Assembly (NCBI GenBank): GCA_947460575.1
Contig: CANHIJ010000002.1
Location: 1-64,000 of the forward strand
Direction of reading: 5' to 3'
Length of the DNA: 64,000 nucleotides
DNA from: Verrucomicrobiales bacterium
GTDB taxonomy: Bacteria; Verrucomicrobiota; Verrucomicrobiia; Verrucomicrobiales; V1-33
In this document: positions 2,928-20,147 of the stretch, one piece after another
Numbering within the stretch: the stretch's first letter is position 1
How the letters are laid out: the number at the start of each line of letters is the position of its first letter
Made by a program: the position numbers and the translations under genes
Notes under the pieces: generated by a model
Databases searched by the model: none
Seen by the model: the letters and a program-made list of their open reading frames with translations, nothing else
Told to the model about the DNA's origin: nothing

Positions 2928-3632
2928 ATGAATAGATCTAAAACCGACCAAGAATCAAGCATTCTCCGCGCGGGGCAAGTGGTGGGCAGCTTAGTGGATG
3001 CCGTCAAGTGGGGTCGGGCGGGGGCGGCCGCGGTGGGGGAACAGTGCGACATTGTGGAATTTAGGGTAGAGGCCTTAGGCGGCCAGATGGGTGCGGTGGC
3101 GGAGGCGATGGCGGCCTGTCCGCTGCCCGTGCTGCTCACGGTGCGGGCGGAGGAGGAGGGCGGCCTGGCAGCGCTGGACGGGGCGGCGCGGCGCGCCATT
3201 TTTGCGGCGCTATTGCCGCAGGCGGCGCTGGTGGACGTGGAATTGGCGCATTTTGGGACCCTATCCAGCGTGGTGGCGGAGGCGCGGGAGCGGGGGATTC
3301 CGGTGGTGGCATCGTTCCATGATTTTGCGGGGACGGCGTCGCTCGCGGCGCTGGAGTCGCTGGTGGGGCGGGCCCAAGAGGCGGGGGCCGCGGCGGTGAA
3401 ATTCGCTACTTTCTTGCGGGGAAGTGGCGACTTGGCGGTGCTGGCAGCGCTGCAGGAATCGGCCCCCCTGCCCCTGGCGACCATGGGGATGGGGCCACTG
3501 GGGCGGGTTTCCCGGCTGCTCCTGGCCAGTTTGGGTTCGGTGTTAAACTACGGGTATTTGGACCAGCCCACGGTGGCGGGTCAATGGTCGGCGCCGCGCC
3601 TGCGGGAACTGCTCAGGGAATTGAGTCCCTGA
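2928..3632 (+). CDS. aroD: Type I 3-dehydroquinate dehydratase
   Basis: Catalyses dehydration of 3-dehydroquinate to 3-dehydroshikimate in the shikimate pathway through a Schiff base. The 234-residue product keeps the family landmarks: Glu44 and Arg46 in the substrate-binding strand (VEFRVE), the catalytic histidine His131 in ASFHDF, and the Schiff-base lysine Lys158 in AAVKFATF. A glycine-rich MGMGPLGRVSR stretch near 186-196 fits the phosphate-side loop of the barrel. Length is typical of the stand-alone enzyme. No clear ribosome binding site precedes the ATG. Its last 20 bases overlap the 3' end of the convergent menC-menE gene. No other shikimate gene is nearby. Confidence 0.88.
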   Translation: MNRSKTDQESSILRAGQVVGSLVDAVKWGRAGAAAVGEQCDIVEFRVEALGGQMGAVAEAMAACPLPVLLTVRAEEEGGLAALDGAARRAIFAALLPQAALVDVELAHFGTLSSVVAEARERGIPVVASFHDFAGTASLAALESLVGRAQEAGAAAVKFATFLRGSGDLAVLAALQESAPLPLATMGMGPLGRVSRLLLASLGSVLNYGYLDQPTVAGQWSAPRLRELLRELSP

Positions 3633-5646
3633 GGAGCGCGGCCAAAGCTGAGTATTGGATCTTGCCGAGGGGGGATCGGGGCAAGGCCGGGACTTCCTGG
3701 GCGCGATGCACGGAGGCAAACGGGGGGGCGACGGCGGCCAGGCGGGCGAGGGCTGGAGCGGCAGGTCCGGCGGCGGGCTCGGCCAGCAGGACGAGTTCGG
3801 CGCCGAGTCGGGGATGCGGGCGCGCCACCAGGGCGAAGCGGCCTGCGGCGAGGCCGAGGGCGGCGAGTTGTTGCTCCAGGGCGTCGAGATTGACCAATTC
3901 TCCGCGCACCTTCACGGCGCGGTCGGCCCGATGGGCAAAGCGCAGGGTGCGGCCTGCCAGGGTCACCTGATCGGAGCTGCGCCACCAGCCATCGGGGTCG
4001 GCGAGAGGCTGGAAGAGCCAAGTGCCGCCGGTCCAGAGGTAGCGCCCTGTGGCCAAGGCCGGGCCGCGCAGTTCGAGCAATCCCAGACCATCCGGCAGGG
4101 GGGGATCTGCGGAGTCCGGCTGCACGCGGGCTTCCCAAGGGGGGAGCAACTCCAGCGGCGCCGGGCCTTGGGAAGAGGCTAGAGCGGCGGTGGCCACTTG
4201 GGAGGCGGCCTCGCTGGACCCGTAGCTGCCGAGGATCGGCCAGCCGAGGCGCCGGGCAGCCGCGGCCGCGGCCTCGTCGAGGGCCCCGCCGCCAACCACC
4301 ACCGCGCGCAGGGATTCGGGGGCCGCCGCGCCGAGTTGCAGGAGGTCGGCCAATTGGGTCGGCACCAGGGAAAGCAGGGTTGCGCCCTCTGCCCGGGCCC
4401 GGTGCAGCAGGCGGGCGGGGTCCCACTTGCCCTCTTCCGCGGCCACCCGGCTGCCGACGCGCGCGGCGCGCCGCTCGATTTGAAAGCCGCCGACGTGAAA
4501 TTCGGGAAGGGCGCGCAGCCAGACGTCCTCGGCGCGGGCCTGGAGCCAGGCATTGACGCTGTCGGCCGAGGCGTCCAGGGAAGCGTCAGTGTGCACCACC
4601 ACCGAGGGCTTGCCGGTGGATCCGCTGGTGGCAAATCCGATCTGCCCAGGGGCTAAGGGGGGACCGCCCTCCGGCAGGGGGGCGCGCGGGTTTTGCCACA
4701 GTCGCCCCGCCGCGGCAGGGGAAGTCCCCGCGAGGGGCACCCAGGGCAAGGCCTCGAGCAGGTCGTCAAAGCCCAGGCCGGTGCCGCCCGGGCCGCGCCA
4801 CGCTGGGCCGCGCCGCGCCAGGCGCTCGGAAAAGGCATCCGGGAGAAAAAGGCGGTGGGTTAGCAATCCCCCTAACTCCTGACCATCGCCGTAGCGCGCC
4901 GCTTCCCAGGCGGCAAAGGCCTGCCCCAGCGGGTGGTCGAGGTAGCTCGTAAAAACCACCGGCCCAGGGCGGCGCCCGGCCGATTCCAGGGCGGGCTTGA
5001 GGACCCGGACGTCGAAGCCGCCGCGCTCCGGTCCCGCGAGGCGGTCCAGGGCGAGCCGCCAGCCCGTCTGCTGCCGCAGCCACTCCCAGCGCGCGGGTTC
5101 GTAGGGCAGCGGGTCCTCCACAAAATCGACCCACTCCTTGATATCTTCGGCAGCGCGCGCGAATGCCAAAAACGTCTCTTCCTGGAGCAGTCCGTTGAAG
5201 TCCACGCGCACCCGCAGTCCGGCGGCCACGGCTTGGCGCATCTGGCCCAGCGCGGCCCGCCAATCCGGCCCGCCCTTGAGCTTCGCGGCGGTGAAGCCCT
5301 CGGCGCGCAGGGCGCCAAAATCGGCGGTGCCCGTGGCGGTGGCGTGACTGAGCGGCACTGGCGCCTGGTGCAAGAGCGAGCGGCCGTCGCGCCGGGCGGC
5401 GGCATCGGCAGCGGCGCAAGCGCGGGCCCGCTCTAACAAGGGAGTGCTCCCGCCGGAGCGGAAGGCCTGCCACTGGTCCTGGAGGGGGGCGTCTCCCAGT
5501 TCCGGCCACGGCATGACCGATCCGTAGCCTCCCGCGACGCGGATCAAGAAGCCCTCGAGGACGCGCCGGGCGGAGCGCGCATTGCCGCCCTCGGGGCCGC
5601 GCAGCTTTAACCCGTAGCGAAAGTAGGCGAGAGCGGGAGGAGTCAT
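3613..5646 (-). CDS. MenC-MenE fusion: o-succinylbenzoate synthase plus o-succinylbenzoate-CoA ligase
   Basis: A single 677-residue frame joins two consecutive steps of menaquinone synthesis. Residues 1 to about 300 are an enolase-superfamily o-succinylbenzoate synthase. It has Lys122-x-Lys124 (AAKLKGG), metal ligands Asp149 (VDFNG), Glu177 (FVEDP) and Asp201 (LALDR), and the last-strand Lys217 (RVLKPA). From about 330 onward is an ANL-family acyl-CoA ligase. It has ATSGSTGKPS (339-348), GSYGSSEA (473-480), WWRSSDQ (554-560), RADRAVKVRGE (573-583) and the catalytic Lys662 in SPLGKIQY. Both halves look catalytically intact and the frame is uninterrupted. The ATG at 5646 is preferred because the longer frame upstream is a shadow of menA. 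It lies 23 bp after menA on the same strand. Confidence 0.9.
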   Translation of the reverse strand: MTPPALAYFRYGLKLRGPEGGNARSARRVLEGFLIRVAGGYGSVMPWPELGDAPLQDQWQAFRSGGSTPLLERARACAAADAAARRDGRSLLHQAPVPLSHATATGTADFGALRAEGFTAAKLKGGPDWRAALGQMRQAVAAGLRVRVDFNGLLQEETFLAFARAAEDIKEWVDFVEDPLPYEPARWEWLRQQTGWRLALDRLAGPERGGFDVRVLKPALESAGRRPGPVVFTSYLDHPLGQAFAAWEAARYGDGQELGGLLTHRLFLPDAFSERLARRGPAWRGPGGTGLGFDDLLEALPWVPLAGTSPAAAGRLWQNPRAPLPEGGPPLAPGQIGFATSGSTGKPSVVVHTDASLDASADSVNAWLQARAEDVWLRALPEFHVGGFQIERRAARVGSRVAAEEGKWDPARLLHRARAEGATLLSLVPTQLADLLQLGAAAPESLRAVVVGGGALDEAAAAAARRLGWPILGSYGSSEAASQVATAALASSQGPAPLELLPPWEARVQPDSADPPLPDGLGLLELRGPALATGRYLWTGGTWLFQPLADPDGWWRSSDQVTLAGRTLRFAHRADRAVKVRGELVNLDALEQQLAALGLAAGRFALVARPHPRLGAELVLLAEPAAGPAAPALARLAAVAPPFASVHRAQEVPALPRSPLGKIQYSALAALLRDSIP

Positions 5647-5669
5647 CCGGCAAAAGAGTTGGGCGCGGC

Positions 5670-6548
5670 TCAGGCGGCCCGCAGCATGGACCAGGTCATG
5701 AGGGCGCTCCACCCCAGCAAGTGCAGGGCCGCTAGGGCGAGATAGCGGTTGTAGATTCGCCCGGGCGGGGAGGCGGCCACCCTGGCGGCGACCAGGGCGC
5801 CGATTCCCGCCGCCGCCAGGGTCGGACCGGTGCCCCAGCCGAAGCCCCAATGGGCCCAAGCCAAACCCAAGGCATAGGGCCCCAGGCAGCAGGCGGCGAT
5901 TTCGGCCTTGGCGAAGCGCTCCCCTAAGCGCACCGCGAGGGTCCGCTTGTGGGATCCGGCGTCTTCTTGGCGATCCCGCAGGTTGTTGATGGCGATGAGC
6001 ACGGTGCTCAGCAGGCCCACTTGGGTCCCCAGGAGGAGCGCCTCAGGCCGCCATTGGCCCGTCTGCACGAAAACCGTGCCCGCCACGGCCACCCAGCCAA
6101 AAAAGAGCAGCACAAACAATTCCCCTAGCCCGCGGTAGGCCAAGGGGAAGGGCCCCCCCGTGTAGCCGTACGTAAAAAAGAGCGAGACCAACCCAATCCC
6201 CACCACCGGGAGGCCCTGAGCCGCCACCATGGGAAGCGAAAGCAGCACTGCCAGCCCGAGCATCGCCAGCCCCGCTCCCAGCATCGCCGAGAGCGGCACC
6301 AGGCCCGCTGCCGTGGCCCGCGGGGGCCCCAGGCGCGCGGCGGTATCCGCCCCTTTGCGCGCGTCCACGGCGTCGTTAAAGTAATTCGTCGCCACCTGAA
6401 TTGCTAGAGTGCTCCCCAGGGTACAAGCCGCCAGACTCCACGAAAAGCTGCCGCTGAGCCGCCAGGCCAAGGCGGAGCCTAACACCACTGGAGCAACCGC
6501 CGCGGGCAGCGTCTTGGGGCGAGCAGCGAGCAGAAAAGCGCGGGTCAT
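5670..6548 (-). CDS. menA: 1,4-dihydroxy-2-naphthoate polyprenyltransferase
   Basis: UbiA-family integral membrane prenyltransferase that attaches the isoprenoid tail to 1,4-dihydroxy-2-naphthoate, giving demethylmenaquinone. The 292-residue product begins RAFLLAARPKTLPAAVAP, the usual start of the family. It has the first Asp-rich motif NYFNDAVDARKGAD (about 50-63) and the second, NNLRDRQEDAGSHKRT, separated by several membrane segments. I used the ATG at 6548 because residues encoded upstream are Arg-rich and unlike the family. It sits directly upstream of the menC-menE fusion, which supports the assignment. The other menaquinone genes (menF, menD, menB, menH) are not in the window. Confidence 0.92.
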   Translation of the reverse strand: MTRAFLLAARPKTLPAAVAPVVLGSALAWRLSGSFSWSLAACTLGSTLAIQVATNYFNDAVDARKGADTAARLGPPRATAAGLVPLSAMLGAGLAMLGLAVLLSLPMVAAQGLPVVGIGLVSLFFTYGYTGGPFPLAYRGLGELFVLLFFGWVAVAGTVFVQTGQWRPEALLLGTQVGLLSTVLIAINNLRDRQEDAGSHKRTLAVRLGERFAKAEIAACCLGPYALGLAWAHWGFGWGTGPTLAAAGIGALVAARVAASPPGRIYNRYLALAALHLLGWSALMTWSMLRAA

Positions 6549-6609
6549 GTTGCGACCATGGCGAACCCCAGAGCGGGCACAAGGGCGGGCGCGCCGCCTC
6601 CTAGCAAAT

Positions 6610-7767
6610 TCACCCATTGCGCCGCAGCGCCTCCGCGGTGCGCAAGCGCAGGGCGTAGCCCGCCGGAAGCGCCCCCGCCACCAAGCCCAGGCCCAGCGCG
6701 GTCAGGGCCCCCAGCAGCAGGGCCTCGCGCGGCACGGTGAGCGAGGGAAGGAGTTGCGGCACTGGATTCCCCGCCGCCAAAATGCCCCAGGAAGCGGCTA
6801 GTCCAGCCAGACCTCCTAGCAATGTAATGACACAGGACTCCGCCAATACGAGCAACAAAACGAGCCCGCCGGTGAACCCCAGGGCCTTGAGGACCCCGAT
6901 TTCCTCGGTGCGCTCGCGGACCGACTGGCTCATGGTATTGCCCGCCACCAACAAAATGGTGAAGAAAACCGCGCTGAGCACCGCCATCAAAATAGACCCG
7001 ATGTCGCCGATCTGCTGCACGAAGCCGGCCGCGAAGGCACCCTCGGGCTCGGCCTTGGTTTCGTAGGGTGAATTGGCGAATTCGCGGTCGATCTGCGCCG
7101 CCACGGCGTCGGCTCCCGCGGCGGGGTCGGCGCGGACGATGTACCACCCCACCGCCCCCTTGCCGCGGGGGCGGGCTTCGTCGAAATAGTCGTAGCGAAA
7201 ATACATGCCGCTGGTATCGGCCCCCTTTTTAGTGGTGTCGAAAATGCCGCAGATTTCAAAATCCCAAGCGGGCTGGGCGGCGGGCTGACCATAAATAGGC
7301 GAAGTAAGGGGAATGCGGTCGCCTACTTTCCAATGAAATCTATCAGCGAGAGACCGACCGATCACGGCGCCGCGGCGGGTTTGCCGCCAGTGGTCCTGCT
7401 GGGCGGGCGGAAGGGTGAACTCTGGGTAGAGGGCCAGGAAGCGGTCGCCCTCGACCGCGAAGTTGGGGAACATATTTTTAGGGTCCTGGTAAATGCCTCC
7501 GAACCAGGTCATGTGGGTGACCTGGCGCACCCCCGGGAGCAGGGCCAGGCGGGAGCCGTAGCTGAGCGGCAGGCTCTCGATGAGGGAAACCTTGTGCCGG
7601 ACGATCAGGCGGTCGGCATCGGCTAGTTTGACTCCCGCGGTGAAGGCTTCGCGGATGGCGCAGAGGAAGCCGAAGAGGAGAAAGGCCACGAAAATCGAGA
7701 GCACCGTGAGCACCGAGCGCAGCTGGCGCCGCCGCAGGTTGCTCCAAATCAAACCCAGGTATTTCAT
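6610..7767 (-). CDS. ABC transporter permease, MacB/FtsX type
   Basis: A 385-residue inner membrane permease with one N-terminal transmembrane helix (about 15-40), a large extracytoplasmic domain of the MacB_PCD kind, and three C-terminal helices (about 260-370). The stretch SQSVRERTEEIGVLKALGF is typical of the FtsX permease family. The start at 7767 overlaps the stop of the ATPase gene in the order ATGA, so the 146 codons of open frame further upstream are a shadow. With the ATPase and the HlyD-like adaptor it forms a three-gene system expected to export a peptide, lipid or small molecule. The substrate cannot be read from the sequence, and no TolC-like partner is present here. Confidence 0.9.
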   Translation of the reverse strand: MKYLGLIWSNLRRRQLRSVLTVLSIFVAFLLFGFLCAIREAFTAGVKLADADRLIVRHKVSLIESLPLSYGSRLALLPGVRQVTHMTWFGGIYQDPKNMFPNFAVEGDRFLALYPEFTLPPAQQDHWRQTRRGAVIGRSLADRFHWKVGDRIPLTSPIYGQPAAQPAWDFEICGIFDTTKKGADTSGMYFRYDYFDEARPRGKGAVGWYIVRADPAAGADAVAAQIDREFANSPYETKAEPEGAFAAGFVQQIGDIGSILMAVLSAVFFTILLVAGNTMSQSVRERTEEIGVLKALGFTGGLVLLLVLAESCVITLLGGLAGLAASWGILAAGNPVPQLLPSLTVPREALLLGALTALGLGLVAGALPAGYALRLRTAEALRRNG

Positions 7768-8456
7768 GTCGGCTGGTCGGAGACGAGCTGCCCCTTCTCG
7801 AGGTGCACCGTGCGGCTGGCCCTGGCGCTGGCGTAAGGGTCGTGAGTGACCATGATGATGGTCTTGCCCTGCTCCTGGTTGAGGGTCTGCAGCAGGGTGA
7901 GAATTTCGTCGCCAGACTTGCGGTCGAGGTCGCCAGTGGGTTCGTCGCAGAGCAGCAAGGTGGGATCGGAGGCGATGGCGCGGGCAATGCCGACGCGCTG
8001 CTGCTCGCCGCCGGAGAGGGTGCGGGGGTAGTGCTGGAGGCGGTGGCTCAGCCCCACCACCGCGAGGGCGTTGCGGGCGTGCTGGCGCCGCTCGCTCTTG
8101 GAAAGCCCCGTGAGCAGCAGGGGCAACTCCACGTTGCGCTCCGCGGTGAGGACCGGCATCAAGTTGTAAAACTGAAACACAAAGCCCACGTGGCGGGCCC
8201 GCCACGCCGCTAGGGCGCGCTCCGAGAGCTGATCAATGCGCTCGCCCTCCACTTCCACCGCGCCCTGGGTGGGGCGGTCCAGCCCGCCAATCAAGTTGAG
8301 CAAGGTCGACTTCCCCGATCCCGACGGCCCCATCAGCGCGAGGAACTCGCCCGGCGCCACTGCGAGGTCCAGCCCGGACAGCACTTTGATATCTTCCGAC
8401 CCGCGGTGGAAGATTTTGCTCACATCGCTAATGCGGACCAGCGGGGCGGCACTCAT
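7764..8456 (-). CDS. ABC transporter ATP-binding protein, LolD/MacB type
   Basis: A 230-residue ATPase that energises the adjoining permease. It shows Walker A GPSGSGKST (43-51), the Q-loop FVFQFYNLMP, the signature LSGGEQQR, Walker B LLLCDEPTGDLD and the H-loop MVTHD. The protein is a single nucleotide-binding domain, unlike Escherichia coli MacB where ATPase and permease are fused. Both ends overlap neighbours by four bases (ATGA), with the adaptor gene upstream and the permease gene downstream, so translation of the three is probably coupled. Confidence 0.93.
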   Translation of the reverse strand: MSAAPLVRISDVSKIFHRGSEDIKVLSGLDLAVAPGEFLALMGPSGSGKSTLLNLIGGLDRPTQGAVEVEGERIDQLSERALAAWRARHVGFVFQFYNLMPVLTAERNVELPLLLTGLSKSERRQHARNALAVVGLSHRLQHYPRTLSGGEQQRVGIARAIASDPTLLLCDEPTGDLDRKSGDEILTLLQTLNQEQGKTIIMVTHDPYASARASRTVHLEKGQLVSDQPT

Positions 8457-9673
8457 GGCTTGGATTGGCGCACCGCGCCCCCCTCCGCGAGGGCCGCGGG
8501 GGGAGCCACGACCACCTTTTCGCCCGCGGCCAGTCCCGCGGCAATCACCGCTTCGCCCGCGGCGCGGCCGCTCAACTGGATTTCCCGGCGCTGCACCCGG
8601 CCCTCCCGCACCACCCAGGCGTAGAAGTGTCCGTCGACCGTGGCCACCGCGGACTCGGGGACGAGGACGGCGTCCCCGCGGTCAGCCGCGGGTTCGGCGG
8701 CCGGGCGGCGCAGGAAAGCCACTTTGACCCCCATTTCTGGAAGGATGCGGGGATCTAAGGCGTCGAAGCCGAGGCGGACCTTGACGGTGGCCTTTTGGCG
8801 GTCGGCGGTAGGGATGATGGCGATGACCCGGCTGGGAATGCGCCAGCCCGCATAGGCGTCCAGCATGGCCTCGGCTGGCTGATCTGCTTGCACGCGGTTG
8901 AGGTAGCTTTCGCTGACATCGACTTCAATTTCGAGCGATTCCATGTCGACCACGGTGCAGATGCCGGTGCGGGTGAAGCCCCCGGAAGACATCGGGGAGA
9001 TGATTTCCCCGGGCTGCGCGTCCTTGGTGGTGACCACGCCCGCGAAAGGCGCGCGGATCACGGTGTCGTCGACTTGCTGGCGGCCCTCGTCCACGCTGCG
9101 CTCCGCCACGGCGATATCCGCGGCCTGCCGGGCCAAGCGGGCCTCCAGGGCCGCGACCTCGGATTCGGCCCGGGACAGGTCGGACTGGCTGGCGGCGCGG
9201 CTTGCAAGGAGGGCGCGAAAGCGGGTCAACTCCAGCTGCGCAAAGGTCAGGCGGGGACGGGTTTCGTCGAGCGAGAGGCGGGCCGCGGCCAACTGGGCCT
9301 CGGAGAGGCGGAGGCCGGCTTGGGCATTGGAGTCATCCAGCCGGGCGACCACTTGCCCCTCCGCTACCTTGAGCCCTTCTTCTACCAAGACCTCCAAAAC
9401 CTTGCCGGTGACCTTGGCGGAAACGGTCGCGGCGCGCCGCGCCGTCACATAGCCAGAAGCATTTAAAAGCACCGGCGAGGCCCCCTCCGCAGACTGCAAG
9501 CGGACCACCGCCGTCTCCACCGCCACCGCGCCAGGACGCTGCCACCACCAGGCACCCGCCGCCGCCAGGGCCAACCAAAGCAGCACCCAACCCCATGGAA
9601 ACGTCCGCCGCGGCCGAGCCGCATGGCGGTCGATCTTCAACCCATCGAGCGCTTCGCGTCCGGCACTTGTCAT
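8453..9673 (-). CDS. HlyD/MacA-type periplasmic adaptor (membrane fusion protein)
   Basis: A 406-residue adaptor for the tripartite export system with the downstream ATPase and permease. One N-terminal membrane anchor (FPWGWVLLWLALAAAGAWWW, about 20-40) is followed by a beta-barrel/lipoyl half-motif (SAKVTGKVLEVLVEEGLKV), an alpha hairpin rich in Ala, Glu and Arg, the second lipoyl half (RAPFAGVVTTKDAQPGE) and C-terminal barrel domains. The ATG at 9673 was chosen over the open frame extending 85 codons upstream, because it directly precedes the anchor and the upstream residues look random. It diverges from the O-antigen-ligase-like gene across 123 bp. First gene of its operon. Confidence 0.9.
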   Translation of the reverse strand: MTSAGREALDGLKIDRHAARPRRTFPWGWVLLWLALAAAGAWWWQRPGAVAVETAVVRLQSAEGASPVLLNASGYVTARRAATVSAKVTGKVLEVLVEEGLKVAEGQVVARLDDSNAQAGLRLSEAQLAAARLSLDETRPRLTFAQLELTRFRALLASRAASQSDLSRAESEVAALEARLARQAADIAVAERSVDEGRQQVDDTVIRAPFAGVVTTKDAQPGEIISPMSSGGFTRTGICTVVDMESLEIEVDVSESYLNRVQADQPAEAMLDAYAGWRIPSRVIAIIPTADRQKATVKVRLGFDALDPRILPEMGVKVAFLRRPAAEPAADRGDAVLVPESAVATVDGHFYAWVVREGRVQRREIQLSGRAAGEAVIAAGLAAGEKVVVAPPAALAEGGAVRQSKP

Positions 9674-9796
9674 CCCACAGGGGAAGGCCAAGCCCCTCGG
9701 CGCGCAAGCTGATTTATCCCCAGGCGTGCCCCGCCGCGCCGAAGATGCCGCAAAGCGATTGAATTTCGCGGAAGATCCTCTTTGGGTGGAGCCGAC

Positions 9797-11125
9797 ATGC
9801 CCGACTCTCCTGCCCCCCTGCCGCGCCGCCCCTCTTGGTGGGTCGAGGGCTGGCGGATTGCCAAGTGGGATCCTTTTGGCTTCGGAGTCTTGACCTTTCC
9901 GCTGATGCTGTTTGTGACTCCGATGCACTGGATGCCGGAGCTGTGGGTGTTGGGCTGGGCCCTGCTAGCGCTGCTGCGCGGGGGCGAACTCTTTTATTGG
10001 CCCAGCCGCCAAGGCCGGGCCGTCCCGCTGCTGGCGATGGCTTTTTTGGGCTGGATGTGGAGTAGCGTCTTTTACGGGATGCCCTCCGGCTGGGAGGCCC
10101 CCACGTACGCCGCCCTCAATGGGCTCAGCTTGGTGCTTTTCCTGCTCGGGCTGTGGCGGGTGGCCCGTCGGCCCTCTCGGATCGATTGGATGTTGCAGGG
10201 CCTCGTCGGCGCAGGCGTCCTCACCGCCTTGATCAGCGCTCCGGTTTATTATTTGGTGCGGGGCCACACCCTCCCGGCCGACCGCCTCGGCAATGTCATC
10301 CCCTATTGCCTCAATGGCCTCTACGAGGTGAACAGCGGCATGCTTTGGGCCTTTGCCGCAGTGGCTGCCGCCGCGGCCTTCACCCAAGCCCCCGCGGCCC
10401 GCCAGCGCGCTGGACTCGCCGCCGCCCTCGCCATCCTGGTCGGGGCCGTCTTTTTGACCCAAACCCGCGGGGCCCTCCTTGGCTTGGGAGCCGCCATGCT
10501 CATTCTCATGCTTACCCGGCCCGCCGCCCGCTGGATGCCGCTCCTCGCGGTCATCGCCCTGAGCGGCTGGACCTGCCAAAATCTGCCCCGCCTCCTCCCT
10601 ACCACTTTTTCCGCCCCCGCGGCCTCCAACCAAGTGCTGCTCGCCACCCCCGGCGCCCTCATGATGTCCCGCGCCGACAGCGGCCGACGCCAACTCTACG
10701 AAGAACTCTACCGCCGCGTCGAAGGCGCCGCCGAAGTCATCATGGGCCGCGGCTTTTGGGCCCGCAGTTCCGCCGAGCCTCAGGAAATTTCCTGGCAGGC
10801 CCCCCACCCCCACGGCGCCTTCATCAGCACCGCCTATCATGGCGGCCTCATCGCCCTAGGACTGTTAGGCCTCCTGATCTGGGCTGGGGTCCAGCGCAGC
10901 CTCTGGCTCGCCCGCCGCGGCCTCGATGTCCGCTGGCTCGCCTTCCTCGCCGCAGGCGGCGCCTCCCTCTGCCTTGACGGCCACACCCTAGCGCTCTTCC
11001 AAACCGTCCCCCTCTTCGAACCCCTCCTCTTCTGGCTCCCCCTCGTGGTCGGCGCCTCCCTGGCCACCAAAATCCGCGACGACCTTCCCGCCGAGGCCCT
11101 CCCCGAGAACTCCTCCCCCGCCTAA
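9797..11125 (+). CDS. O-antigen ligase / polysaccharide polymerase family membrane protein
   Basis: A 442-residue polytopic membrane protein of the O-antigen ligase (Wzy_C/WaaL-like) kind, expected to join or polymerise lipid-linked glycans on the outer face of the inner membrane. About ten or eleven hydrophobic segments are visible. A long periplasmic loop (about 275-345) is followed by PHPHGAFIS, the usual histidine-containing signature at the end of that loop. The stretch LTQTRGALLGLG is also typical. The ATG at 9797 is preceded at the right distance by GTGGAG, so it is preferred to the in-frame TTG at 9782. The exopolysaccharide genes at 448-2869 could be partners, but they are not in the same operon. 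Confidence 0.8.
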   Translation: MPDSPAPLPRRPSWWVEGWRIAKWDPFGFGVLTFPLMLFVTPMHWMPELWVLGWALLALLRGGELFYWPSRQGRAVPLLAMAFLGWMWSSVFYGMPSGWEAPTYAALNGLSLVLFLLGLWRVARRPSRIDWMLQGLVGAGVLTALISAPVYYLVRGHTLPADRLGNVIPYCLNGLYEVNSGMLWAFAAVAAAAAFTQAPAARQRAGLAAALAILVGAVFLTQTRGALLGLGAAMLILMLTRPAARWMPLLAVIALSGWTCQNLPRLLPTTFSAPAASNQVLLATPGALMMSRADSGRRQLYEELYRRVEGAAEVIMGRGFWARSSAEPQEISWQAPHPHGAFISTAYHGGLIALGLLGLLIWAGVQRSLWLARRGLDVRWLAFLAAGGASLCLDGHTLALFQTVPLFEPLLFWLPLVVGASLATKIRDDLPAEALPENSSPA

Positions 11126-13598: not shown

Positions 13599-16500
13599 TC
13601 ACTCCTGCCGCACCCGCACCCGCAGCAGCCAAGCTTTCGTTCCTAGCGGAACCTCCAGGCGCTCCGCGACCCACTCCGTGGCGCCGTCCCCCGCCGGGTT
13701 AAGGCCGATGGGCGCGGAGGGCCGCGGGGTCCAGGTCGCCGCAGGATCCAGGGCGCTCTCCACGCTGTAGGCGAGGCCGCGCGCGGCGAAGTCCAAGCGG
13801 CGCCGCCACCTCAATTCCACCGCCGGAGGCTGCGACCCCGGGATCGCGCGCAGCACGGGTTGCCGACCCGCGGCGTCGTCGCCCCGAGCAGGATCTCCCC
13901 CCGCGGCGTATTCCGCAAAATTGCTCAAGCCATCGCCATCAGCATCGGCCTCCGCGCCGCGCGCCCCGCTGGGCACCGCCGGGTAGCTCTCGATCCAACT
14001 GCCAAAGTTAAGCCCGCCGCCGCCGCTCGTGACAAAAGTTCCGCTGCGGCCACCGGGGTCGCTACCCGCGGAGTTGCGCGCGAAAAAGCGGAAAAAATAG
14101 GGCGTTAGGGGGCGCAGCCCGTGAATCGGAACCGCCAGCGGGCCGGGCCCAGGCGCGCGGACCAAAAGGCTTTGCGGCCACGCGGCGAAATCGCTCCCGC
14201 CATCCAGCGGACCCCAGCAAACCGAAACCTGCGGCGCTTCCCCCCCGGTACTCCCTAACAACCCTTCGAGCACGGCCCCACTAGCACTCACCGCACTGGC
14301 CTGGACGACCTCGATTTCCGGCCGCTGCACCGTCCCCGCGGGTTGCCCTTCCAGGAGCGGCACCAAGAGGAAATCCGAACTGTCCGCGGTTTGATTGAGC
14401 CCCTGGAAACTCAAGACGTTGAGCCCCTCCACCAAGCGCGAGCGCTGCCCGCTGAGGTCGATCACCTCAAAGGCGACCGCCGCCACTTCGTCCCGCGATG
14501 CGCTCGCGGTGGAGTTCCACGGCAGATCGCCCGCCAGCGCCGGAGCCCCCCGGCGCGCCACTTCATGGCCATTGAGGTAGGCCACAAAACCGTCGTCGTA
14601 TTTCACGGAAAGGCGCAGCCCCGCGATCTGGCTGAGTTGGTCAGCGAAGAAGGGTGCCCTCACATAAACACTCGATGCTAGGTTGTACATCGCTCCCGCA
14701 ACGTCGCGGCCCGCCGCAAAATGTGCTTGGTAACCAGTGCCGCGGTCGTAGCCCAGTCCGTGGACAAATGGCGTCCAGCTGCGGTCGTCAAAATCCAACT
14801 GCTTCCAGCGGCCCCCCCATTCGTCCGAGGTCGGCGCCAGAAAGCGCATCGGATCCGCGCTGGTCAACAGCGCGATTCCCGGAGCCTCCAGGGTACTAAA
14901 GGAAGCGCTCCCAGACCAGGCCTCGCCCCCTCCGTTGCTGCCGCGCAGGCCATAAAAATACCGCGTCCCCGGCCGCAGGTTGGCGATGGGAAAACTCAGC
15001 GGCCCGACCGCCGAAACCGCCGCCAGCTCGTGCGCGTGCTCCCAGGCCGCGGGATTGCGGCCCCCATCCTGGCGGCCCCAGTACCAGGTCACCCGGGGCG
15101 CCGCCCCGCCTGTTCCTAACAACGAAGCTGCGAGCGCAGCGCTAGTCTGAGTTAGGCTCCCGGCGGCCCCCGCGGCCAGCTGAGGCGGGTTGGGCACCGC
15201 GGCACTCCCCCCCGGCGACCAGATCAACTCCGGCACCAACAACAGATCGGAGCTGGCGGCGGATTCATTGAGGACCTGAATCGCCAGCACGTTAGAACCG
15301 GCCACCAGCGAGTTCGCCAGCGGGGTGATGTCGTCGTCCCGAAAGGCCACCGCCTCGTCCTCATTGCGCGCGCTGGTGGCCGCAGAATTAAACGCCAGAG
15401 TGGTTGGCCCATCGTGTCCCGCCGCTGCGCTGCCGTTGATCCAGGCCTGGTAGCCATCCTCGTACTTCACGCGCAAGCGCAGCGTCCCCAGGGCCGCCGG
15501 ATTGGCCACGGTAAATGGAAGGCGCACGTAAAGTGAGGTCGCCACGTTGAACATCGCCGCCTGCACGTCCGTCGCCAGCAGGGCGTCATAGCCAGTCCCC
15601 GTGTCGTACCCAATCCCCGAGGTGCCCGCCGCCCAGCCGACGTCGCTGAAGCTGCGCGCCAGCCAAGTAGTCCCCAAGCTGGCCGTCGGCACCAACCAGC
15701 GGAGCGCCGCCCCCGCGCTGACCAAACTGGCCTCCAAGGTGACCCTAACAGCGCTCTCAGTAACCGCAGGCGGCACCGCGCCGTCGCTCGCCGCAATCGT
15801 TAGGGTGAACCGCGGAGTGGCCGCGATATCCAGCCCTGCAGGGTTGGCCGCGCGCAGCAAGCCCCCGGCGGCGATGCTGAAAACGCCCCCCGCATTACCC
15901 CCCACAATGGCGAAACTAACCGCTTGGCCCTCGGGGTCGCTAGCGGCCAGAGTGCCCACATCGCCGCTGCCCGCCACCCCCGCGCGGAGCACGAAATGTT
16001 GCCCCCCAAAGGCCGGGGCCTCATTGGTGTCCCCCAGCTTGACTTGGACCTGCGCCCGGCTCGCCAGGAGCGGATTCCCCACCTCGCTCACGCGCACCAC
16101 CAGATCAAAAACCGGCCGCATCTCGAAATCGAGCCCAAAGGACGAAGCCACCCGCAACTGCCCGGTGGCGGTATCAATCGCGAAGGTCTCAAAGGCATTG
16201 CCGCCCACCAACTCAAAGCGCAGCGCCGCCCCCTCGGGATCGCTCGCCGCCACCTGCCCCACCAGGGTCCCCGCCGCCGCATTCTCCCCCACCGCCATGG
16301 CCTGCGCCGCCACCACCGGGGCCTGGTTCGCCACCGCCACCCGAAAAGTCGTCTCCACAAAGGCCCCGCCGGGGTCCGTGGCCCTCACCGTTAGATCGGA
16401 AATCCCCGAGTTCGCCGAAAAGGATAGAAGCAGACCTGGCGGCGCTCCCCCCGCGATCGCCACCGCAGCAAAAATCGCTGGATTGCTATTGCCTGTGACC

Positions 16501-19500
16501 GCGAAGGCCAAGTCGGCGGCGGCGCCATCGAGGTCGCCAAAGGCTGCCCCGAGATCGACCCGGCTCGGGGCCGCCCTCGGCGAAACCGCGAGGTCGGGCA
16601 AGCCCAGGGCATATGGCGCGCCGGGAGCGTTGCCCGCAAACGTGGCCTCAATCTCGCGCCAGGTGCGCACCGCGCCGTCGTCCGCCTCCAAGCGCAAGCG
16701 GTAGCGGCCCAGCGCGCCGACGCTCAGCGCGGTCGCCAGCTCCGCGGGATTGCCAAACGCCGCCGCGCCCGGCCCCTCCGCGGACCAGGTCGTGGTAGTC
16801 ATCCCAGGGAGCGCCGGGCGGGCATCATCCCGAACGGTCGCGGCCAACAGCGCGGTGGGCGCGCTCCGACCGCCCACCGTTAGGGAGCGCACCCCGAAGG
16901 CGATGCGCGGGGCGCGGTTTTCTGAAAGCCGCGCTAAAATCCCCACTTCCTCCGCCGTTAGGGGACGAGAGTAGATGCGGACGTCGTCCACTTGCCCCCG
17001 CCAGTAATCGGAGCCCGTGCTGGTGAGGTGGCGGCCAATCGCCAGGGTATCGAGATTGAGGATGCCTCCAAAAAAGGGCCGCACCCCTTCCCGCACCGCC
17101 GCGCCGTCAAGATACAGCTTGGCCTGGCGGGCCCCATCTACGGTCACCGCCACATGGTGCCAGACGTCGTTGTTGACCGCGCTCGGCGATGCCAAGCTGG
17201 CCACCTCGGTGCCCGCATCCCCGAGCACCTTGTATTTCAAAATGCCGCCCTCCACATAGAGGCGCAGCGAGCGGTCCGGCCGGGTGCGATTACTCGCCGA
17301 AAAAAGCGTCCGCAGGCTCGAACTGTTGGTCTTGAACCAGGCACTGAGCGTGCCCTCGGCTAGTCCCTGCACAGCCGCCACCTGCGCGCTCAGGTTGACC
17401 CAATCGTCGGCGCCATCAAAGTTGCGCGCCGCCCCCAGCACCCCCGCCGTGCTAGCAACCCCGCCGGCGTAGATGCCACTTCGATTCCCCCCCGACGCGT
17501 CTAAGGCGATCGTGCCCGCCGTTTCGTCGAGTTTCCACCACGCCGCGGGAGGCTCGCCCTCCCCGCTGCTCGGAGCCTCCACCGCCACCGCCACGTCGTC
17601 GCTGCTCGCAAAGCCATTGTCGGAAAGCGTGAGCCGCAACACGTACTCCCCCGGCCGACTAAAGCTGGCGCGCGTCCGCTTCGCCGCGGCTTCGGAAAAC
17701 TCAACCGCCCCCCCTTCCGGCCCGCGCAGCAGGCTCCACTGCACGCTCACCTGGCCCGATAGCGGGGGGTCCGCCGCCGTCTGCGGCGCCGTTTCTAACA
17801 CCAACCCGTGCCCCGCCTCAATCAAGACCCGATCCGCGGCTGGCGAACTGATCTCCCCAAAGGGCAGGATGATGTACGCCGAATTCGCCTGGCGCACCCC
17901 AGCGGCGTCCTCCACCACATACTCAATCGCCGCCACCCCCCGCGCCCCCGCGGCCGGCGTAAACGTCATCTGCCCATTGTACACATCTGTACTAACATTA
18001 TCAATAGTGAACGCCCGCGCGCTCAGCGCCAGCGCACCCTTGGCTGGATTGAGTAGCTTTGCGGAGATGAGCCGCGCCGCGCCCGGAAAATAACTGGCAC
18101 CCGCGGCCGCCTGGCCCAGCCCCACAATCGGCCGCACGCTGGCGTGGTTCCGGTACCCCGCGACCTGGTCATTGACCATCGGGGCTAGGCGCAGACTAGC
18201 CTGCCCCGGCATCAAGGAAAAATAGTCTGGCCGGGTCTGCAAATAGTCCGCCACATAGGTCAGGCTCACCGTGACCGGAACCCCATTGCGCAGCATTTGA
18301 AAACTGTCCGCACCCGCGGCATCGGCCTGCACCCGGATGATGACCAGGTGGCGGTCGTTGCGCCCGGTATCCACCCGAGCCTGGCGCGGCTGACTCACGA
18401 TGGTGCTGTCCGCGCTGCTGGTGGGGCGAAAGGAAAATGCCTGCCCGGGAGCCAAGCGCAGCGCCAGCGAGTCCTCGTTCCAAGCCCCCACCTCCACCGC
18501 GATGTCGGCCCGGTGCAGCCAACCCTGGCCTCCATTCCCCTGGTTTCCCCGCAGCGAATAGCTAAACCAAGCCGGGCCTTCATAGCCGGGCGTCGGCTCG
18601 AAGCGCACCCGATCCGGCCCCGTCACCCGGGCGCTCCCCGCCTGGATGGGGTAGACGCGCCCGACTTCCTCAATAGTTAGGACAGTGTTCGCAATTCCGT
18701 TGCGCACCCCGCTGCGGTCGTTGAGCAGCGGCAGCAATTCGATCGCCTGGCCCGGCACCGTGTCCGCGGCGTCATCGACCGCCCAAGGAATTTCCTCCGC
18801 GTGGCGCATCACGTTAGAACCCGTCAGGCGGGTGGCCGCGTGGCTGTAAATTTGCATCGCCGAGGTTTCCCCCGCTGAGACGTCCGCAAAAAAATCGCGG
18901 CTGTCCACCAGCGAGGCATTCATGATGCCGCCGCTGCTGTGGTCGCTCCCCAGGTTGTGCCCTTGTTCGTGCGCCTCCAGGGCCACTCCAAATCCCTTGG
19001 CGCAAACATTGACTGGCGCAGTGGAGCCGAGCGTGCGCACCCACGCCAGCCCGATCACGCCGCCCGAAAAGGCCCCATTGCCAAATTTTGTGCTCAAATC
19101 CCAGCGGAACGTCCCGCGCGGGCGCCGCGCGCTGATCCAGGCGCCGTAGTCTCCTAGCGAATTGGGGACGTCGGGGAAGGCGGCGGCGTCGGGCGTCAGA
19201 ATCAATTCCTGAATCAAATGGCGGATTCCGAGATTGCTTTCTTGAATCGACGCCAAATCCGCGGTCTTGGCCAAGTACTCTGAAGTGATCTGGGTGAGGC
19301 GCTCCGTGGTATTGGCGCCGGTGACAGACTTGTCTAAGGTCACAATCGCGAGGAGATCCTTTAGGCTCAACTCATAGGCCTGCCCGTGGGGCACCGGCTC
19401 GACAAACTTATCCAGGCGCCCGGTTTCTGGATCAAACCCATTGGAGGGCAGCGCTAGCGGATCCAGCGCCGCGGCCGCAGCCTCCTGCCAATCCGCCTCC

Positions 19501-20147
19501 TCCACTGGGGCCGCCCCCGCGCGCGCCGCCGCCCAGCCGGTGTGCGGGTCGATGGCGCAGCTGATCTGCTCTTGCTCGGCTCGCCGCGTCAAGGCCCGCA
19601 AGTCTCCCGTGGCGGCATCGGTGCGCAGCCGGATCACGTTGCCATTCGCCTCCGTGAGGACCGCAGCCACCGCCCCACCTGCTAGAGCGACGACCAAGCG
19701 CACCGACTCTCCCCCGCGGTGTTCCCGCCCCTCGTAGACGCGCGTCCCCGCCTCCAGCCGCAAGCTTTGGTCCCCTCCCAAGGTGACCTGAAAATGGTCT
19801 GCCAAGAGGCGGCGGGGCCGCATCAAGAAGGTCCGCCGCGGCGCTCCCTCCAGAGCCAATCCAAGCGGCTGCCCGGCGTCCAAGACCGCTGCCAGCCCCC
19901 GCGTCCGCGCCGTAAAGCCATCGCTCTCCAGCGCCGCCCAGCCCTGGCCCGGCGGGGGACCCGCCACCGCGACCACCTCCCTAGCTACCTCCCCCGGCCC
20001 CGCTAGCACCGCCCCCACCGAAGCAACCCTAACTTCTATCTGCCCCCCCCGGCCCGGCCCCCCCGCCCCAAAGGGCAGCCCGCCGCAAAGCATCAGGAGG
20101 GCCAGACAAAGCAGAGCGCAGGCGATCGGAAGGCGGTTTTGTTTCAT
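13599..20147 (-). CDS. Giant secreted multidomain metalloprotease-like protein
   Basis: A 2182-residue exported protein. A signal peptide is evident (MKQNRLPIACALLCLALLML). A reprolysin-like domain (about 260-440) carries the zinc motif HEQGHNLGSDH (393-403) followed by a Met-turn-like GGIMN, so it is probably a metzincin. Then come Ig/cadherin-like repeats with ADTVPGQAIELLPLLND, a PKD-like segment (about 770-860) and a LamG-type lectin fold (about 868-1070, with HHVAVTVDG). Cadherin repeats follow, such as DPEGAALRFELVGGN. Near the C terminus a module with a KYxDGxxAxxNG signature alternates twice with a fibronectin-III-like domain (about 1500-2040). It ends after a calcium-binding DADGDGLSNFAEY stretch (about 2068-2080). 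Likely a surface or secreted protease or adhesin; the target is unknown. Confidence 0.85.
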   Translation of the reverse strand: MKQNRLPIACALLCLALLMLCGGLPFGAGGPGRGGQIEVRVASVGAVLAGPGEVAREVVAVAGPPPGQGWAALESDGFTARTRGLAAVLDAGQPLGLALEGAPRRTFLMRPRRLLADHFQVTLGGDQSLRLEAGTRVYEGREHRGGESVRLVVALAGGAVAAVLTEANGNVIRLRTDAATGDLRALTRRAEQEQISCAIDPHTGWAAARAGAAPVEEADWQEAAAAALDPLALPSNGFDPETGRLDKFVEPVPHGQAYELSLKDLLAIVTLDKSVTGANTTERLTQITSEYLAKTADLASIQESNLGIRHLIQELILTPDAAAFPDVPNSLGDYGAWISARRPRGTFRWDLSTKFGNGAFSGGVIGLAWVRTLGSTAPVNVCAKGFGVALEAHEQGHNLGSDHSSGGIMNASLVDSRDFFADVSAGETSAMQIYSHAATRLTGSNVMRHAEEIPWAVDDAADTVPGQAIELLPLLNDRSGVRNGIANTVLTIEEVGRVYPIQAGSARVTGPDRVRFEPTPGYEGPAWFSYSLRGNQGNGGQGWLHRADIAVEVGAWNEDSLALRLAPGQAFSFRPTSSADSTIVSQPRQARVDTGRNDRHLVIIRVQADAAGADSFQMLRNGVPVTVSLTYVADYLQTRPDYFSLMPGQASLRLAPMVNDQVAGYRNHASVRPIVGLGQAAAGASYFPGAARLISAKLLNPAKGALALSARAFTIDNVSTDVYNGQMTFTPAAGARGVAAIEYVVEDAAGVRQANSAYIILPFGEISSPAADRVLIEAGHGLVLETAPQTAADPPLSGQVSVQWSLLRGPEGGAVEFSEAAAKRTRASFSRPGEYVLRLTLSDNGFASSDDVAVAVEAPSSGEGEPPAAWWKLDETAGTIALDASGGNRSGIYAGGVASTAGVLGAARNFDGADDWVNLSAQVAAVQGLAEGTLSAWFKTNSSSLRTLFSASNRTRPDRSLRLYVEGGILKYKVLGDAGTEVASLASPSAVNNDVWHHVAVTVDGARQAKLYLDGAAVREGVRPFFGGILNLDTLAIGRHLTSTGSDYWRGQVDDVRIYSRPLTAEEVGILARLSENRAPRIAFGVRSLTVGGRSAPTALLAATVRDDARPALPGMTTTTWSAEGPGAAAFGNPAELATALSVGALGRYRLRLEADDGAVRTWREIEATFAGNAPGAPYALGLPDLAVSPRAAPSRVDLGAAFGDLDGAAADLAFAVTGNSNPAIFAAVAIAGGAPPGLLLSFSANSGISDLTVRATDPGGAFVETTFRVAVANQAPVVAAQAMAVGENAAAGTLVGQVAASDPEGAALRFELVGGNAFETFAIDTATGQLRVASSFGLDFEMRPVFDLVVRVSEVGNPLLASRAQVQVKLGDTNEAPAFGGQHFVLRAGVAGSGDVGTLAASDPEGQAVSFAIVGGNAGGVFSIAAGGLLRAANPAGLDIAATPRFTLTIAASDGAVPPAVTESAVRVTLEASLVSAGAALRWLVPTASLGTTWLARSFSDVGWAAGTSGIGYDTGTGYDALLATDVQAAMFNVATSLYVRLPFTVANPAALGTLRLRVKYEDGYQAWINGSAAAGHDGPTTLAFNSAATSARNEDEAVAFRDDDITPLANSLVAGSNVLAIQVLNESAASSDLLLVPELIWSPGGSAAVPNPPQLAAGAAGSLTQTSAALAASLLGTGGAAPRVTWYWGRQDGGRNPAAWEHAHELAAVSAVGPLSFPIANLRPGTRYFYGLRGSNGGGEAWSGSASFSTLEAPGIALLTSADPMRFLAPTSDEWGGRWKQLDFDDRSWTPFVHGLGYDRGTGYQAHFAAGRDVAGAMYNLASSVYVRAPFFADQLSQIAGLRLSVKYDDGFVAYLNGHEVARRGAPALAGDLPWNSTASASRDEVAAVAFEVIDLSGQRSRLVEGLNVLSFQGLNQTADSSDFLLVPLLEGQPAGTVQRPEIEVVQASAVSASGAVLEGLLGSTGGEAPQVSVCWGPLDGGSDFAAWPQSLLVRAPGPGPLAVPIHGLRPLTPYFFRFFARNSAGSDPGGRSGTFVTSGGGGLNFGSWIESYPAVPSGARGAEADADGDGLSNFAEYAAGGDPARGDDAAGRQPVLRAIPGSQPPAVELRWRRRLDFAARGLAYSVESALDPAATWTPRPSAPIGLNPAGDGATEWVAERLEVPLGTKAWLLRVRVRQE

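Follow-up and report, generated by a model that had tools for sequence, protein, structure and literature searches.

In menaquinone-using bacteria and in cyanobacteria the men homologues are individual genes, usually in operons, and in algae and plants PHYLLO is a fusion of MenF, MenD, MenC and MenH that ends at o-succinylbenzoate (OSB), with MenE made separately (excerpts of PMC2412073 and PMC6189191). No report of a MenC-MenE fusion was found in the literature searched, where coverage of subscription journals was largely lacking. Here we describe a menC-menE fusion gene on a stretch of 64,000 nucleotides, called the window below, from a Verrucomicrobiales bacterium (assembly GCA_947460575.1, contig CANHIJ010000002.1, positions 1 to 64,000). 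The gene very probably encodes a bifunctional enzyme of the classical menaquinone (vitamin K2) route, which probably arose once, in the ancestor of two genera, from adjacent and most likely overlapping, out-of-frame menC and menE genes. The N-terminal half would dehydrate 2-succinyl-6-hydroxy-2,4-cyclohexadiene-1-carboxylate (SHCHC) to OSB, the MenC step, and the C-terminal half would activate OSB with ATP and coenzyme A (CoA), the MenE step. The gene and its parts are as follows.

3613-5646, minus strand: menC-menE fusion gene, 677 amino acids, ATG at 5646, stop at 3613-3615; unbroken homologues in five other genomes.
4732-5646, minus strand: MenC (OSB synthase) part, residues 1-305, with Lys122, Lys124, Asp149, Glu177, Asp201 and Lys217 present.
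4642-4731, minus strand: linker, residues 306-335, in the place of the menC stop and the menE N-terminus of unfused relatives.
3616-4641, minus strand: MenE-type AMP-forming ligase part, residues 336-677, of compact form, with His384, Arg393, Glu479, Asp559, Arg573, Lys579 and Lys662 present.
4603-4629, minus strand: ligase P-loop TSGSTGKPS, residues 340-348, with Ser348 for the usual Lys.
3661-3663, minus strand: codon of the catalytic Lys662 (A10 motif), the probable equivalent of Bacillus subtilis MenE Lys471.

The minus strand at 3613-5646 is a single uninterrupted frame of 677 codons, and several stops are present there on the plus strand. Pfam domains OSBS_N (residues 7-84, 71.1 bits, cut-off 27), MR_MLE_C (residues 113-201, 43.7 bits, cut-off 29.4) and AMP-binding (residues 340-534, 75.5 bits, cut-off 29.9) were detected in the protein. 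A longer frame of 748 amino acids, starting from a TTG at 5859, was rejected, as it extends into the neighbouring menA gene, and the alignment with relatives begins close to the ATG at 5646. A sequence-only reading of this DNA had proposed a fusion at these coordinates in one 677-residue frame; this was correct, the frame sitting on the minus strand, and its numbering of Lys662 and of the six MenC residues listed above was exact. It had also considered that a sequencing error might have removed an in-frame stop, which five other genomes with the same unbroken fusion contradict. The fusion is real, and is due neither to chance nor to an assembly error, because it recurs in these five genomes, both halves align to solved structures, and synonymous changes dominate in both.

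The six MenC residues are invariant among 81 distinct MenC rows (6/6 fused and 75/75 unfused; four near-identical rows had been removed from the initial 85). They comprise the KxK pair, which we take to be part of the MenC active-site signature, the Asp/Glu/Asp set and the second Lys; OSBS_N and the enolase C-terminal domain both exceed their cut-offs. In Escherichia coli MenC, Asp161, Glu190 and Asp213 are metal ligands and Lys235 is the second Lys (excerpt of PMC4511580). By sequence, the closest solved relative of residues 13-305 is the Bdellovibrio OSB synthase 3caw. This half is named MenC by homology, residues and context, rather than as a certified equivalog, and its synthase activity is predicted.

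For the ligase half, 75 distinct rows were aligned, 7 from the fused clade and 68 unfused. The seventh fused-clade row comes from genome G020, where a contig end truncates the MenC side. Excluded were L097, L010 (a copy of the window) and L040 (a copy of L011), together with four fragments of at most 250 residues (L036, L048, L069, L077) and 3 near-identical rows (78 to 75). His384, Arg393, Glu479, Asp559, Arg573 and Lys579 do not vary, and each of the 74 rows long enough to cover position 662 has the Lys (7/7 fused-clade, 67/67 unfused). Arg393, read by eye as the Arg aligned with the R/K position that differs between structures 6nj0 and 5c5h, is kept in 7/7 and 68/68 rows; it is the equivalent of E. 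coli MenE Arg195, mutated in 5c5h, which presumably has a role in OSB binding. The P-loop signature TSG[ST]TGxPK of the ANL superfamily usually, if not absolutely, ends in Lys. The ligase half has an AMP-binding domain above cut-off and the A10 Lys, and lacks a P-loop with the terminal Lys. The claim of the sequence-only reading that all catalytic residues are kept thus holds for the MenC half and fails for the MenE half, where the P-loop Lys is Ser348. In B. subtilis MenE, Lys471 contacts the ATP alpha phosphate (excerpt of PMC11619455), and the nearest solved structures by sequence, for residues 339-489, are those of this enzyme (5x8f/5buq). Again it is homology, with context, that names this half MenE-type, not a certified equivalog; an OSB-CoA ligase activity is predicted.

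Selection on the two halves was estimated pairwise between fused genes, as the ratio of nonsynonymous to synonymous substitution rates (dN/dS) by the Nei-Gojobori method. Between the window genome (G000) and G036, dN/dS was 0.134 for MenC, 0.153 for the linker (30 codons) and 0.139 for the ligase; between G040 and G044 the values were 0.262, 0.177 and 0.268. The comparison of G000 with G003 gave 0.248 for MenC and 0.277 for the ligase, the linker being saturated. Purifying selection thus acts equally on the two halves, an argument that the ligase half is still functional.

We then looked at the distribution of the fusion. Some match was obtained in 283 of the 288 genomes sampled for the order, and 6 of them had an unbroken match over both halves among the matches listed. 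At least 8 more matched over both halves with one or more internal stops, and in some genomes (e.g. G015, G018, G034, G053) the menC-like and menE-like matches lie far apart. All six fused genomes (G000, G036, G003; G012, G040, G044) belong to the family of the window, a family of environmental bacteria, and the fused proteins of the other five are 49-79% identical to the window protein. This family has 13 genomes: 6 fused, 2 with separate genes (G024, G032), 3 in which the locus is cut by a contig end (G020, G055, G059), and two without a convincing MenC or MenE match, G028 (86% complete) and G051 (77% complete). No further fusion was seen among the matches listed for 387 genomes of the phylum, a draw which lacked the other five fused genomes; the search stayed within the phylum. 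Among 88 loci (L010-L097), 73 have two genes, 7 are fused (L040 being a copy of L011) and 8 have one gene or none. Of the 58 loci from named genomes, 57 are Verrucomicrobia-type (Akkermansiaceae, Verrucomicrobiaceae, Luteolibacter, Haloferula, Prosthecobacter, Roseibacillus, unplaced), and the exception, in an Alteromonadaceae metagenome-assembled genome (MAG), matches the ligase weakly. The MenC-MenE fusion is therefore rare and local within the order. This bears out the view of the sequence-only reading that separate genes are the usual state, and answers, within the phylum, its call for a search of proteins with both domains; its other suggestion, to look for stand-alone menC or menE genes, is taken up below. 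The fused locus L040 (CALQKQ020000143.1) is titled Akkermansia muciniphila, a species label that looks doubtful.

A tree of 25 rows was built from the 6 fused proteins and from 19 unfused rows whose halves had been joined, junction columns being kept. The six fused rows are separated from the others by a branch that has 100/99 support and is recovered in 100% of 200 bootstrap trees, and a single change explains the fused or unfused label on the tree. Caution is needed in reading this tree, as 8 of its 22 inner branches were drawn open and ten rows, four of them fused, have an odd residue make-up. Because the six fusions form one clade, one origin is likely, and the joining of menC and menE probably happened once.

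How the genes were joined is suggested by the unfused relatives. In 59 of 69 distinct adjacent pairs, menC and menE are in different frames, and in 10 in the same frame; 30 of the pairs overlap by 19 bases, and in 50 an out-of-frame ATG lies within the last 27 bases of menC. In G024, menC ends with Pro-Trp-Gln-Arg-Leu-Asn-stop, and the menE ATG lies within the Pro-Trp codons in a different frame. G222, G031 and G054, the last with Ser-Trp, share this overlap layout. In G087, by contrast, the menE start follows directly on the menC stop and is in frame with menC. The distance from the Trp codon to the P-loop is 128 bases in G024, and among the fusions 114 in G000 and G036, 117 in G003, 102 in G012 and 165 (55 codons) in G040 and G044. 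Since menC and menE are out of frame in G024 and G032, the two unfused members of the family, the join was most likely made by junction length changes, which would have brought the two genes, most likely overlapping, into one frame and done away with the stop of menC and the start of menE. A less likely route would be the loss of the stop in an ancestor that had both genes in frame. The ATG at the Pro-Trp codons persists in G012, G040 and G044, now out of frame, and may be a relic of the menE start. It may also have arisen by chance, because CCA accounts for 16, 19 and 26% of the Pro codons in the G012, G040 and G044 genes, respectively, and G040 and G044 are close relatives.

We next examined which other genes of the pathway are present in the window genome, an assembly of 4.21 Mb in 216 contigs. 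One of them is directly upstream of the fusion gene, on the same strand:

5670-6617, minus strand: menA (1,4-dihydroxy-2-naphthoate prenyltransferase).

The gap between the menA stop and the ATG of the fusion is 23 bases, and menA precedes menC in many unfused relatives too. Contig C76 holds menD (254.0 bits, cut-off 244.2) together with a menF-like frame of the chorismate-binding type and, in the menH position, an alpha/beta hydrolase, and menB is on contig C9 (460.2 bits, cut-off 342.7). The menF-like, menD and menH-like frames are consecutive and overlapping on a single strand (L103, 1379-4792), separate from the menA-menCE pair. The futalosine route was rejected as an alternative, as no match to PF02621 (MqnA/MqnD) was found in the genome, a model that matched 4 of 14 control genomes. 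On its other side the fusion gene is convergent with aroD (type I 3-dehydroquinase; 2928-3632, plus strand), with a tail-to-tail overlap of 20 bases; G036 and G003, and on visual inspection G059, likewise have an aroD-like gene on this side.

Several observations weigh against a bifunctional enzyme that is alone in its genome. Both halves score far under the NCBIfam equivalog cut-offs (MenC half, NF047905, 128.5 bits vs 500; ligase half, menE model TIGR01923, 98.8 bits vs 330). The genome is 89.6% complete, which limits searches for competing genes. The fusion gene is the sole OSBS_N match in it, but OSBS_N also missed all 14 well-known control genomes, among them E. coli and B. subtilis, and so recognises a single type of MenC. 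The broader MR_MLE_C model, which matched 14/14 controls, adds two enolase-superfamily proteins, L007 and L008, which carry KxK and Asp-x-Asn motifs. As for MenE, the menE model has six matches in the genome, and four loci outscore the fusion gene (172.8, 151.7, 120.7 and 112.2 vs 100.2 bits). Finally, the ligase half has lost the conserved P-loop lysine: position 348 is Ser in 7/7 fused-clade rows, and Lys in 61, Gln in 5 and Arg in 2 of the 68 unfused ones, the unfused same-family genomes having Arg (G032) and Lys (G024). The P-loop glycine at 345 is also gone in G012, G040, G044 and G020. In the last three of these the P-loop has one inserted residue, and this glycine is absent from 3/68 unfused rows as well. 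Two further positions near the catalytic Lys662 differ: Gly642 (57/67 unfused rows) is Pro in 7/7 fused rows, and Arg645 (63/67 unfused) is retained in just 1/7. These changes may belong with that of the P-loop.

The competing candidates were examined one by one. L007 and L008 are unlikely to be a separate MenC: they matched no OSB synthase model and only a racemase model, weakly (18.8 and 20.5 of 400 bits), and the alignment of L007 to the MenC half is marginal (E value 0.14). They are two similar 464-residue proteins on two contigs of about 4 kb, possibly duplicates or strain variants. Of the menE-model matches, L001 is acyl-ACP-ligase-like (ACP, acyl carrier protein) and L004 an acetate-CoA ligase; L002 and L003 are nonribosomal peptide synthetase (NRPS)-like stretches in one open frame (L002 was scanned). 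L006, a 424-residue ligase, lies beside ketosynthase-, methyltransferase- and glycosyltransferase-like frames, its neighbours being judged by eye. Its surroundings (L102, contig C17 of G000, about 2976-9966) hold, by eye, two ketosynthase-like frames, a dehydratase-like frame, the L006 ligase, and methyltransferase-, glycosyltransferase- and FAD-enzyme-like frames; this presumably resembles a cluster of the aryl-polyene type. No other good menC or menE candidate was thus found with the menE, OSBS_N and MR_MLE_C models in this 89.6% complete genome, which bears, within that limit, on the point raised by the sequence-only reading. Because no other good MenC or MenE candidate and no futalosine gene was found, but menF-, menD- and menH-like frames, menB and menA are present, the fused protein is the best candidate for two steps of the sole menaquinone route detected, and probably performs both.

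The other explanations can now be weighed. One is that catalysis by the ligase half is impaired or gone, with o-succinylbenzoyl-CoA being made by a different acyl-CoA synthetase of this genome. This would account for the serine in all seven fused-clade rows, at a position where lysine is 97% conserved among class I adenylate-forming enzymes (a survey, excerpt of PMC6122825), and for the four loci with better menE scores. We nevertheless hold it to be unlikely. Purifying selection is equal on both halves, His384, Arg393, Glu479, Asp559, Lys579 and Lys662 are retained, and the other ligases of the genome, L006 excepted, fit other families better. In addition, the P-loop lysine is not essential in Mycobacterium tuberculosis FadD13, where Lys172Ala is still active, with a kcat of 0.0102 vs 0.0277 per second and a Km for ATP raised about tenfold (2.44 vs 0.24 mM in the table, the text giving 1520 uM for the mutant; excerpt of PMC2793005). 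Because this mutant retains activity with a raised Km, the Lys-to-Ser change should, by analogy, weaken ATP binding in the present enzyme rather than abolish catalysis. That two separate proteins are still made, through an internal start or by cleavage, is very unlikely. In-frame starts do occur near the junction in the window gene (TTG300, GTG303) and in G036, G003 and G012, but the start codons of these four fusions are at non-matching places, and a separately started ligase is improbable in G040 and G044 because no in-frame ATG, GTG or TTG lies between the last Trp of menC and the P-loop. As to a stop lost through faulty sequencing or assembly, the six fused genomes are all draft assemblies, the only named record with a fusion is a MAG, and pairs already in the same frame exist elsewhere (the 10 of 69 above). 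This explanation is ruled out for practical purposes by the five other genomes with divergent, unbroken fusions; moreover, a lost stop alone would not join the genes, since they are in different frames in the closest unfused relatives, G024 and G032.

For the bifunctional enzyme that we favour, the main benefit would probably be the fixed 1:1 production and the co-location of both activities. The fusion might also, as the sequence-only reading proposed, channel OSB from the MenC to the MenE active site and keep this intermediate out of the cell pool. Such a role would suit two consecutive enzymes in one chain, and a fusion that has lasted across two genera. It is doubtful, however, in view of the AlphaFold model (57 sequences; mean predicted local distance difference test score, pLDDT, 92.5; predicted template modelling score, pTM, 0.61). 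Residues 307-311, the hinge between the halves, are the sole inner segment with pLDDT below 50, and with a pTM of 0.61 the relative placing of the two halves and of their active sites is uncertain; no tunnel or fixed arrangement is seen. The distance from the last MenC Trp to the P-loop varies from 33 to 54 residues among the six fusions, unlike what a fixed interface would require. Channelling is thus neither supported nor excluded by the model. The model superimposes on 3caw (Z 35.2, root-mean-square deviation, rmsd, 1.9, 288 residues) and on 5x8f (Z 32.0, rmsd 4.2, 366 residues). The ligase structure matches begin at model residue 51-59, as if the MenC part replaced the absent ligase N-terminus, a feature given no weight at this pTM. 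A further idea, distinctly doubtful, is that the fusion and the P-loop change, which in one genus extends to the glycine, share an ancestral branch because they are linked: the attached MenC would supply OSB, and the ligase would tolerate or exploit a weaker grip on ATP, making a two-step enzyme with its own kinetics and possibly direct transfer.

Elsewhere in the window, the minus strand at 13599-20147 carries a 2182-residue frame in which a zinc-peptidase-like motif (HEQGHNLGSDH) and extended repeat-like stretches were read by eye; the product is probably a large protein that is secreted or displayed at the surface. Neither a tRNA nor an Rfam match above gathering score was found in the window (1-64000).

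Each half was compared with its closest known counterparts. In other Verrucomicrobiales-type genomes, menC and menE as separate genes belong to the same families, are usually adjacent (73 of 88 loci), and encode proteins about 35-47% identical to the halves; they differ in making two proteins, mostly from out-of-frame pairs, and in usually keeping the P-loop Lys (61/68 rows). The Bdellovibrio bacteriovorus OSB synthase 3caw has the same fold as the MenC half and is 33% identical over 288 residues, but is a stand-alone enzyme of 330 residues. B. subtilis MenE (5buq/5bur/5x8f) shares fold and sequence family with the ligase half, as well as, we infer, the catalytic Lys; it differs in its chains of 485-494 residues, with a TSGTTGKPK P-loop from near residue 151-154, where the fusion has Ser for the last Lys. 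The unfused relatives of the ligase half have a median of 40 residues ahead of the P-loop. Compact ligases (PDB 4gs5, 358 residues; NCBIfam PRK07824, 362 positions) are likewise short with a P-loop near the N-terminus, but are single ligases without a MenC part.

The likeness to PHYLLO, a fusion of phylloquinone enzymes, is that consecutive enzymes of one pathway are fused, MenC included. The four-enzyme PHYLLO chain itself is not found here, as the chain has MenC and AMP-binding domains alone: MenC is joined to the next enzyme, MenE, and the menF-, menD- and menH-like frames are on contig C76. Enzymes of the menaquinone pathway have been proposed as drug targets (excerpt of PMC6257245), and the fused clade offers a natural test of how an AMP-forming ligase functions without its P-loop lysine. 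We judge that familiar enzymes are found here in a new join, with an unusual P-loop; the case is a modest curiosity and does not amount to a new type of system. With both fused and unfused close relatives available, it also illustrates clearly how two neighbours that probably overlapped out of frame can turn into a single protein.

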